Source of the DNA: an uncultured Lachnospiraceae bacterium
Lineage (GTDB): Bacteria; Bacillota; Clostridia; Lachnospirales; Lachnospiraceae
Direction: 5' to 3'
DNA: 42,475 bases
NCBI GenBank assembly: GCA_947169235.1
Contig: CAMVOY010000017.1
Span: 1 to 42,475 of the forward strand
In this document: piece after piece, positions 9,798 through 31,607 of the stretch
How the letters are laid out: each line of letters opens with the position of its first letter
Numbering within the stretch: the stretch's first letter is position 1
Made by a program: the position numbers and the translations under genes
Notes under the pieces: generated by a model
Database searches by the model: none
Seen by the model: only the letters and a program-made list of their open reading frames with translations
Told to the model about the DNA's origin: nothing

Positions 9798-10095
9798 GGT
9801 TTTCTGTGCATTTGCGATGGTCGGCGACTACGCCTCGAAGACACTTGCCGAACGAAGTTAGATGAGCGGAGAAGTCGGATAGGCCCGTTCCCGAGGAACT
9901 TGTTTGAGCGTAGCTGTGAAGAGCCGATGCGCGTCACACGTGCCGCAAAGCGGTATCACGCGTGACGGGTATCGGGTCGCACACAGCACGCGAGTTTGAC
10001 GAGGGCGGGCCTGAGATATCCGAATTCTTCGCGAGTCAACGTAGTTTGTGCGTCTTGGAGGCGTGTCGCCGACTATCGCTCAATACGGAAAAACC
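9798..10095. repeat. Long branched inverted-repeat element, copy 1
   Basis: The two ends pair over about 100 nt each. GGTTTTCTG...GCGAT (from 9798) matches the complement of ATCGC...GGAAAAACC (to 10095). GTCGGCGAC-GCCTC (9820-9837) pairs with GGAGGCG-GTCGCCGAC (10057-10073). GGATAGGCCCG (9877-9887) pairs with CGGGCCTGAGATATCC (10006-10021). Between the arms lie the core CTTGTTTGAGCGTAG (9899-9913) and an apical hairpin, GTCACaCGTGCCGC / GCGGtatCACGcGTGAC (9933-9966). There is no ORF. It fills the divergent intergenic region between the AT-rich secreted gene and the PilZ gene. It could be a MITE-like mobile repeat or a structured RNA; I do not recognise a named family. Confidence 0.75.
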
Positions 10096-10125
10096 ATTTT
10101 TTGACACAGTTAAAGAAAGTTTTGC

Positions 10126-10197: not shown

Positions 10198-10542
10198 ATG
10201 ATCGATATGAGAAGAGAGCGCCGTTGGCCGGCGAGTTTGAAACTCGAGATCTCGTCGCTTTTTAAACAGGATAATGAAAAAATAGAAAATGTCGATGCTC
10301 CGATAGAGGTTGTCGACGTGTCACACGCAGGTATAGGATTCCGCACAGAGAGCGTGCTTCCGGTAGGATATTATTTCAACGCTCGTCTGGTATTCGGCGA
10401 GAAGGATGCGCTTAACTGCGTGGTACGTATCTTGAGAAAGCAGGAAGACGGTGACGGGTTTATTTACGGCTGCGAGATAGTGGGAGCTGCTTCTATCATG
10501 GATTACGTGGTAAATGATTATGCAGCCACTTTGAATGAGTAA
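10198..10542 (+). CDS. PilZ-domain c-di-GMP receptor
   Basis: A 114-residue single-domain PilZ protein. The two c-di-GMP-binding elements are present: an RxxxR box (R5-R9, RRERR) and D40-V-S42-H-A-G45, the DxSxxG box. No other domain or membrane segment is seen, so it is probably a stand-alone effector that binds a partner when loaded with c-di-GMP. GGAGG sits about 13 nt before ATG 10198. It has its own promoter and is separated from the RND exporter by a hairpin. It fits with the cyclase and EAL phosphodiesterases at 18.5-21.8 kb and 34.9-36.8 kb. Confidence 0.9.
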   Translation: MIDMRRERRWPASLKLEISSLFKQDNEKIENVDAPIEVVDVSHAGIGFRTESVLPVGYYFNARLVFGEKDALNCVVRILRKQEDGDGFIYGCEIVGAASIMDYVVNDYAATLNE

Positions 10543-29448: not shown

Positions 29449-30954
29449 ATGGATTTAGAAAACAAGACATTGCAGGAACTCAGAGAGATGGCAAAGGAGA
29501 AGGGTATCGAAAAATACTCCTCCATGCGAAAGGCTGATCTGATAAAGAGGCTCGGAGCATCATTGGCTGCTCCTGTTGCAGATGCCGTGAAACCGGAAAA
29601 GCATGAGAAGCAGGAAAAACATGAGAAACCAAACAGATCCGACAGAAAGCATGCTCAGCCTGAAAAACGTCAGGAAAAGCCTGAACAGCGGGAGCAGCCA
29701 AGTGATCGCAGGCAGAATTATCATAACGGGAATACCAGAAGTCGTTATCATGACGGCTCAGACGGTGTGATCAGTGTTCAGAAGGAGAGGCAGATCGAGG
29801 AGGTAGCTCCAACGGAGCTTAAGGATCTCGACAGTGGCATCACCAAAAACGGAATACTGGAGATCATGACAGAGGGATATGGTTTTATCCGTTGTGACAA
29901 CTATCTTCCGGGTGAGGATGATGTATACGTATCGCCTCAGTTTATCCGCAGATTCGGTCTGCGTACGGGAGATATCATCACCGGTAATCTTCGTCGCAGA
30001 ACTCAGAACGAAAAGTTCTCCGCACTTCTTTATATGAAGAAGGTTAACGGTTTGCCGACAAGCTATCTGTATGACAGAAAGAAGTTTGAAAATCTGACGC
30101 CGATCTTTCCGGATGAGAGGATCAGGCTCGAAACACCGGGAGCAGCTGTCTCCATGAGGATGCTGGATCTGATATCTCCGATAGGTAAGGGACAGCGTGG
30201 TATGATCGTGTCTCAGCCGAAGACGGGAAAGACGACGCTTATCAAGCAGGTGGCAAAGTCAGTCACGAAAAATCATCCCGATATGAAGATGATAATCCTT
30301 CTTATCGATGAGCGACCGGAGGAGGTTACTGACATCAAGGAGTCTATCGAGGGCAACCAGGTTGAGGTCATCTACTCGACCTTTGATGAGCTTCCTGAGA
30401 ATCACAAACGTGTTTCCGAGATGGTCATTGAGCGTGCCAAGCGTCTCGTAGAGTGCGGAGAGGATGTTATGATCCTGCTTGACTCGATCACGAGACTTGC
30501 AAGAGCCTATAACCTTACGGTCACTCCCAGCGGACGTACTCTTTCGGGTGGTCTGGATCCTGCGGCATTGCATATGCCGAAGAGATTTTTCGGTGCTGCG
30601 AGAAACATGCGTGAGGGTGGAAGTCTGACTATCCTTGCAACAGCGCTTGTTGATACCGGAAGCCGTATGGATGATGTCGTTTTCGAGGAGTTCAAGGGTA
30701 CCGGTAACATGGAGCTTATGCTGGATCGATCCCTTTCCGAAAAAAGGATCTTCCCGGCTATAGATATCACGAAGTCGAGTACCAGACGCGAGGATCTGCT
30801 TCTCGATGAAGAGGAGCAGGAGTGCGTCGTGAAGATCAGAAGGATGCTCGGAGGGATGAGGCCGGATCAGGCCATGGAACAGGTGATGGATATATTCAGA
30901 CGTACGAAGGACAATCGGGAATTTATCGAGATGGTCAAAAAGATCAGGATTTGA
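29449..30954 (+). CDS. rho: Transcription termination factor Rho
   Basis: 501 residues. An N-terminal helical domain ([25 protein letters not shown]) is followed by a Lys/Glu/His/Arg-rich low-complexity linker of about 65 residues (50-115) that E. coli Rho lacks but many Clostridia and Actinobacteria have. Next come the cold-shock-like RNA-binding domain ([20 protein letters not shown]), Walker A PKTGKTTL near residue 258, [13 protein letters not shown], and the Q- and R-loop regions to the C-terminus. GGAGGG lies 6 nt before ATG. The stop codon TGA lies at the left border of the second inverted-repeat element. Confidence 0.97.
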
Positions 30955-31270
30955 TTATTCAGTAGCATATGCTGCCTTATGAGATATCATCCACGGGCAA
31001 CGGGCACGAGCTTATCGATTCACAGCACCTTTTGATAATCTCGGATGCCCCTGCGGCACTCGCTTGTTTCGTGCGCACTATGTGCTTCGAAACTACGCTC
31101 AAACAAGTCCTCGGGGCATCCATCAAAAGGCACTGTTTATCAGATAAGCTCGGCTAATGTTGCCCTTAGTATGAATCTCATGTCGGCAGCAGCATGCTAT
31201 CAGGCCACAACCGACCGCCTATGTGGCCGTACGTGATGCGGACCATGAAACTTGCTACTGAATAATCAAA
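30951..31270. repeat. Long branched inverted-repeat element, copy 2
   Basis: Perfect 17-bp ends, TTGATTATTCAGTAGCA at 30951-30967 and its complement at 31253-31269. Inner arms pair as GGGCAAC (30995-31001) with GTTGCCC (31159-31165), GAGCTTATC with GATAAGCTC, CCTTTTGAT with ATCAAAAGG, and GGATGCCCC (31043-31051) with GGGGCATCC (31113-31121). A side hairpin, GGCCACA / TGTGGCC (31203-31228), branches off the right arm. The - strand core CTTGTTTGAGCGTAG (complement of 31093-31107) equals that of copy 1. It fills the rho-rpmE gap with no ORF, and the left end includes the rho stop codon. It might also act as the rho 3' terminator structure (inference). Confidence 0.8.
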
Positions 31271-31296
31271 TTAAGGGCATTTTTTTTAAAAAGTGC

Positions 31297-31406: not shown

Positions 31407-31607
31407 ATGAGAGAAGGAATTCATCCGGAGTACTACCAGGCAAAGGTAGTATGCAACTGCGGAAATGAATTTGTGACAGGCTCGACTAAGGAGGATATCC
31501 ACGTCGAGGTTTGCTCAAAGTGCCATCCGTTCTACACAGGACAGCAGAAGGCTGCCCAGGCACGTGGCGCGATCGAGAAGTTCAACCGCAGATACGGCTT
31601 AAAATAG
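31407..31607 (+). CDS. rpmE: Ribosomal protein L31
   Basis: 66 residues from ATG 31407, preceded by AGGAGGTGTATC. It starts [16 protein letters not shown], with the zinc ligands in CNCG and CSKC, so it is the zinc-containing (C+) form. It ends in FNRRYGLK as usual. A longer in-frame start at 31371 lacks a ribosome-binding site and family support. A terminator follows at 31629. The rpmE-yqhQ-prmC-prfA order is typical of Clostridia. Confidence 0.97.

Follow-up and report, generated by a model that had tools for sequence, protein, structure and literature searches.

The stretch of DNA analysed here (the window; 42,475 nt from an uncultured Lachnospiraceae bacterium, genome G000) carries two long inverted repeats in opposite orientation, whose arms differ in sequence and whose tops are nearly the same. 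This raises the question of what such elements are, an RNA acting through its fold or a mobile sequence that folds as DNA, and we approached it from the fold, the relatives and the genomic setting of the two copies.

Two rods with one core in the window

The predicted fold energy of copy 1 on the + strand was -182.3 kcal/mol against -109.4 for shuffled sequences (z -12.8), and that of copy 2 on the - strand was -168.2 against -97.4 (z -13.5). None of 100 shuffles matched the native energy for either copy, confirming the original prediction of two rod-forming elements. The opposite strands were also stable (z -11.6 for copy 1 and -9.0 for copy 2), because both copies are palindromes. Scanned coarsely for folds, the window showed 47 stretches with at least 35 nested pairs, and copies 1 and 2, with 105 and 92, were the only ones with more than 65. 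Reading the two sequences side by side verified the nearly identical core, one A apart, and its place near the rod top, where an apical hairpin and GCGAGT follow in both copies (Table 1). By blastn, the copies are 87.5% identical over 32 nt. Although both rods are real, the limits first given to copy 2 are too wide: its outer part, at about 31205-31255, is a side branch, and the block in common with an ecfA junction stops at 31229, so that the actual repeat does not fill the whole of 30951-31270.

Table 1. Features of the two rods and their neighbouring genes in the window (R1, covariance model; A1, alignment of 21 copies; c1 and c2, rod types)
Feature	Position	Strand	Basis
Copy 1 (c1 type), entire rod, flanked by two divergent genes	9798..10095	+	fold z -12.8
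Copy 1, R1 match	9866-10032	+	E 1.9e-12; copy 1 is a training sequence
GCCGAAC, 5' side of conserved stem, one bulged T	9847..9853	+	alignment A1 columns 9-15
Copy 1 apical core, 5' side, CCCGAGGAACTTGTTTGAGCGTAG	9890..9913	+	sequence, alignment
Copy 1 variable apical hairpin, in place of the minimal motif's GNA loop	9914..9989	+	fold, alignment
Copy 1 GCGAGT, apical core 3' side	9990..9995	+	sequence, alignment
GTTTGTGC, 3' partner of 9847-9853, bulged T	10044..10051	+	alignment, covariation
Six-T run after copy 1 rod, terminator-like	10097..10102	+	sequence; absent from simple terminator scan list
PilZ-domain gene, downstream of copy 1	10198..10542	+	Pfam PF07238, E 4.4e-5
rho, upstream of copy 2	29449..30954	+	Pfam PF07497, PF00006, PF07498
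Copy 2 (c2 type), in the rho-rpmE interval; motif antisense to both genes	30951..31270	-	fold z -13.5
Block common to copy 2 and ecfA1-ecfA2 junction, same genome	30970..31229	-	93.5% over 260 bp
GCTCGTGC, partner of 31148-31154, bulged T	31004..31011	-	sequence, covariation
Copy 2, R1 match	31022-31136	-	E 1.5e-24; copy 2 is a training sequence
Copy 2 GCGAGT, apical core 3' side	31058..31063	-	sequence, alignment
Copy 2 apical core, 5' side (complement), CCCGAGGACTTGTTTGAGCGTAG	31093..31115	-	sequence, alignment
Copy 2 GCCGAGC	31148..31154	-	sequence, alignment
11 bp identical to ecfA1 final codons and stop	31219..31229	-	sequence comparison
Eight-T run after copy 2 rod, rho sense strand	31280..31287	+	sequence; absent from simple terminator scan list
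rpmE (ribosomal protein L31)	31410..31607	+	Pfam PF01197

Related rods, covariation and the apex

The 15-nt core has four exact occurrences in G000. Blast with copy 2 hit 6 places in G000 and 5 of 31 genus genomes; the corresponding numbers for copy 1 were 5 places and 4 genomes of the 31. Rods of the c1 and c2 types barely align beyond the core, yet the spacing and some small motifs are common to both: GCCGA is located about 47-55 nt upstream of TGTTTGAGCG, TCGTGC lies downstream of GCGAG, and the two pair into one stem with a bulged T. One c1 copy (L077 4192-4446) carries a 44-nt hairpin-like insert right after GCGA.

A covariance model search of related Lachnospiraceae, the check proposed with the original prediction, was performed with a model (R1) made from the inner 115 positions of the alignment. 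Further copies were found: R1 matched at 11 places in G000 and, with G000 counted, at 32 in 10 of the 39 genus genomes; training sequences make up 21 of the 32. Across 392 genomes of the order, five matched, namely G000 and four from other genera of the same family, with per-genome E-values between 2.3e-8 and 2.9e-4. Among named relatives, a scan for the motif pointed to rumen Lachnospiraceae (P6B14) and to Eubacterium MAGs; its scattered single matches elsewhere were regarded as chance.

Alignment A1 comprises 21 copies and omits the rho copy of G011, two near-identical c1 copies and three contig-edge fragments of G012. Two-sided changes that preserve pairing were found in 44 of its 55 pairs, covariation was 0.432 against 0.181 when shuffled, and 87.2% of the cells were paired against 71.9% when shuffled and 29.7-44.4% in slid controls. 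In 26 copies from two distant genomes, G456 and G695, short loop motifs are kept and the arms vary, with two-sided changes in 31 of 39 pairs, covariation of 0.560 against 0.164, and 91.8% of cells paired against 70.1% (slid controls over both alignments, 30-49%); in both alignments the tested structures were drawn from the same sequences and are therefore somewhat favoured, and the pair counts are inflated and non-independent because the copies are related. The arms were expected to pair while diverging, and these counts bear that out; the covariation and the near-identical copies at separate loci described below also support the proposed alternatives of selection on the fold or a fold-driven mobile element. 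Both things on which that proposal had been staked, further copies and covariation, were found. From these comparisons we regard the copies as real, structure-selected and dispersed elements.

Rods of other genera have a short apical hairpin or none, and their apex is reduced to TGTTTGAGCGNAGCGAGTT. With up to two mismatches, this minimal motif was found in 23 of 398 genomes of the phylum, several of whose single matches look like chance. The counts of motif versus reversed pattern were 37:0 in G632, 16:0 in G456, 14:0 in G695, 13:4 in G474, 6:1 in G784, 6:0 in G453, 6:2 in G698 and 4:2 in G513. When 60 motif sites of rod-rich loci were folded, the median number of enclosing pairs was 77.5, and 54 sites had at least 30 (6 had fewer); at 100 randomly chosen positions of these loci the median was 7.5, and none of them reached 30. 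Over 73 sites, the median rod measures 195 nt and 72 pairs. The distant rods may be homologous to the window rods over the full length or may have just the apex in common with them. A core found outside rods, which was to count against an RNA-like element, is rare in the rod-rich loci, whereas in viral sequences the short motif is mostly outside rods: among 53 viral contigs with the motif, rods were found in 12 (5 of 12 distinct contexts) and none in 41. In G632, motif sites are located at the ends of contigs C29, C42, C55 and C190, and the sequences suggest that near-identical rods break the assemblies of this genome.

The apex in the alignments is a GA-GC / GC-GA stem, capped by a GNA triloop in most distant genomes and by an extra variable hairpin in the source genus, where the window copies have no GNA loop. 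The 71-174 pair under the loop in A1 is G-C in 18 of 21 copies and A-U in 3, and its counterpart in the G456 and G695 rods is G-C in 19 of 26 and A-T in 7; neither was ever broken. GA stands on both flanks in all 26 of these rods. Of 69 distinct minimal motifs, 65 have a GNA loop, with the second base of GNAG free. According to PMC4686876, DNA hairpins whose GNA loop is closed by two or more G-C pairs are extraordinarily stable and nuclease-resistant, and the GCGAAGC mini-hairpin has a Tm of 78 C. On the sequence level, minimal motifs have such a loop on two G-C pairs, whereas 7 of the 26 G456 and G695 rods have A-T as one of the two closing pairs. The nearest-neighbour folds did not reproduce the known stability of the mini-hairpin: DNA parameters gave the isolated apex no stability, and RNA parameters favoured an alternative helix, ACUUGUUU/AAGCGAGU, over the apex stem. 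An RNA kink-turn consists of a three-nt bulge and then tandem sheared G.A pairs. The rods have GA on both strands (26/26), but the preceding loop is 5-7 nt long.

Dispersal, genomic setting and strand

Three c1 copies on two contigs are 99% identical over about 285 bp (aligned identities of 283/284, 283/285 and 285/288); by eye, no target-site duplication was seen in these copies, whose ends are only roughly placed. The rho-rpmE and ecfA1-ecfA2 junctions of G000 have 260 bp in common at 93.5%, and the rho and ecfA junctions of G011 have 158 bp of another rod type in common at 94.3%. These common blocks start 11-12 bp upstream of the ecfA1 stop codon, which suggests, on a very short common piece of ecfA1, copying in the direction from ecfA to rho. 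The comparison of ecfA junctions covered 12 loci: those of G000, G011 and G002 have rods, of two types, and those of G016, G012, G010, G009 and G042 have none. The junctions of G043, G008 and G007 have other rods, by eye before another gene, and that of G023 was unclear. A second rod type, here called D, bears GGCACGCTTGCGCTTTTTTC on one of its arms, and several of its copies also have AACGTAGCGGTGCATGG...CACCGACGTT. It adjoins c2 rods and occupies the ecfA junction in G011 and G002; its loci are L323 2200-2700, L324 2200-2700, L023 1250-1800 and L072 500-600.

At distant loci, 7 of 8 close rod pairs are divergent, one is tandem and none is convergent, and the three close pairs in the genus are all divergent. 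The divergent pairs lie 240-460 bp apart in a BIME-like manner, and one tandem pair is in L183 (rod-pair loci: L254, L256, L258, L262, L263, L264, L266, L071 2708-3234, L082 and L087).

The rods are intergenic. By crude ORF prediction, in 48 of 72 cases the neighbouring gene 3' of the motif has its end facing the rod, mostly at 90-150 nt from the rod centre, and the layout at 73 rods was tandem with the motif antisense in 29, tandem sense in 15, convergent in 17 and divergent in 8. TTTT was found downstream of 4 of the 73 rods and AAAA upstream of 14. Promoter scans of both window copies gave no promoter-like site leading into them beyond chance.

An important RNA of the motif strand would be expected to allow G.U but not A.C. 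We therefore counted G.T and A.C in arms that had been scored without favour to either, a score passed by 43 of 64 distant rods. The G.T versus A.C count was 54:32 in 20 genus rods (ratio 1.69, bootstrap 1.05-2.75) and 92:55 in the 43 distant rods (ratio 1.67, bootstrap 1.21-2.33). These sequence counts only mildly mark the motif strand as the one under selection, and so weak a G.T excess is what ssDNA or a mild constraint on RNA would give, and does not suit a strict RNA.

The foremost alternative to a mobile DNA is a structured RNA in transcripts, either a 3'-UTR or a stand-alone RNA, whose tandem-G.A, kink-turn-like apex would bind a protein and stabilise or end messages. The strong covariation in both alignments favours it, as do the T runs adjoining both window copies and the 3'-side genes that end towards the rod, and the mild G.T excess fits a weakly selected RNA. 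Against this, the motif is commonly antisense to the genes beside it, T runs rarely follow the rods, the window copies have no promoter-like site beyond chance, and the G.T excess is small; on balance we consider this explanation possible but doubtful. A free-standing RNA gene under a promoter of its own was set aside: by eye, some c1 copies are preceded by promoter-like sequence, and the window scans gave nothing above chance.

Mobility and known elements

We consider it probable, with some reserve, that copies 1 and 2 are diverged members of a dispersed family of non-autonomous mobile palindromes that act as a folded single strand. As the folding molecule we favour ssDNA over RNA, because GC-GNA-GC is a known ultra-stable DNA mini-hairpin. 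The motif strand would be exposed as ssDNA at replication forks or in a cruciform, where the mini-hairpin and the flanking tandem G.A pairs would nucleate the fold. The same mini-hairpin would be the putative recognition site of an enzyme acting in trans, and the folded strand would then be copied or pasted between genes elsewhere. The inserted rod may double as a transcript 3' end, for example copy 2 behind rho. A dedicated transposase for the rod family was not found.

A bolder account, which we consider rather unlikely, is a selfish ssDNA element without a transposase of its own, whose folded strand is copied by a housekeeping replication or repair enzyme into gaps behind genes. The GA-GC-GNA-GC-GA mini-hairpin would be a nuclease-resistant cap that lets it survive on displaced strands. 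If true, this would explain the spread over many Bacillota, the absent partner gene, the captured flanks and the replacement of rods at the same junction.

Movement of a REP/REPIN-like element by a Y1 (RAYT) transposase is improbable. The rods are palindromic, intergenic and paired head to head as described above, a Y1 gene lies near a rod in G453, and in a PF01797 search of G000 and 40 chosen genomes Y1 genes were found in 13 of 20 rod-bearing genomes versus 8 of 20 others. However, there was no Y1 gene in G000, in five rod-bearing relatives of the genus, in G784 or in G079, and among the 18 Y1 loci examined a rod motif was in the ~2.5-3.5 kb stretch around only 1 of the 14 Y1 genes from rod-bearing genomes. 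REPs, as described in PMC3733652, are likewise palindromes in head-to-head pairs, often behind genes, but measure 20-40 bp and have a GTAG or CGTC end tag, whereas the rods have a median of 195 nt and the GNAG inside the apex.

A derivation from UPF0236 (ISLre2-like) insertion sequences, with the rod as their end and the solo copies as remnants, is very unlikely: in G000 and G009 the UPF0236 stop codon is followed by a rod at a distance of about 30 bp, but 2 of the 4 genes with a readable 3' end (G005 and G013) have no motif within 500 nt, and solo rods, by eye, lack insertion sequence ends. By eye, the UPF0236 genes at L069 7160-9060 and L079 1600-3360 have the rod right after the stop and within the insertion-sequence ends. 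Equally remote is the idea of plain long intrinsic terminators grown by chance or template switching: copy 2 does stand at the expected end of rho with eight T after the rod, but the apex is common to several genera, homologous blocks occur at separate loci, copy 1 lies between divergent genes, and a T run, though beside both window copies, is no general feature. A plasmid or phage origin was also dismissed, as 96-nt and 251-nt rod queries gave no plasmid match and a 44-nt query only short chance-like phage matches.

Rfam (4227 families, including ROOL, GOLLD, HEARO and raiA) gave no match at the gathering level for copy 1, copy 2 or 16 loci with relatives, in agreement with the initial impression that no named RNA fits. 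At E up to 10, copy 2 had no match and copy 1 only three, to microRNA families and far under their cut-offs.

The integron attC site is recognised as folded ssDNA and keeps its structure while its sequence diverges, with motifs at the base and a varying apex. Structure is likewise kept in the rods, but the arrangement is reversed and the apex is conserved. Close to the preferred reading, a mobile palindrome, is MRSC-65-2, a single long, strongly covarying stem with dozens of copies, many per genome, in several phyla, thought to be selfish and possibly relevant as DNA (PMC11109978). Compared by description, its conserved repeat is UYCCGG, whereas the rod family has TGTTTGAGCGNAGCGAGTT at the apex. 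A table of the same paper counts 250 mobile or repeat candidates, which may include the rod family without naming it. ERIC, Correia/NEMIS, RUP and YPAL are intergenic, non-autonomous, palindromic long stem-loops, most of whose movers are unknown (PMC2229807). Conserved terminal inverted repeats are found in most of them, together with TA duplications, whereas the rods have a conserved apex and diverging outer arms; YPAL, with internal inverted repeats, comes nearest. As in MITE, ERIC and Correia elements, the rods are non-coding, dispersed, intergenic palindromes, but conserved terminal inverted repeats are absent. No publication with the motif in a relevant context was found in the literature searched, to which the supplement alignments of PMC11109978 did not belong. 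The kind of element is thus already known (ERIC, REPIN, MRSC-65-2), and the rod family itself looks new.

One short diagnostic motif thereby ties together several unannotated long hairpins of Firmicutes, and a covariance model can count them. Chemistry and aptamer studies have so far been the main source on the GNA mini-hairpin; if the rods do act as ssDNA, nature uses it to cap a mobile element. Filled and empty sites among close relatives make the movement of a palindrome without a recognisable transposase testable. In viral contigs, the 20-nt motif without a rod recurs in one context (L203, L206, L211, L216, L242 and their kin), and two P2-like contig types (L201 and L214) carry a rod between the small terminase and head-completion (GPL) genes.
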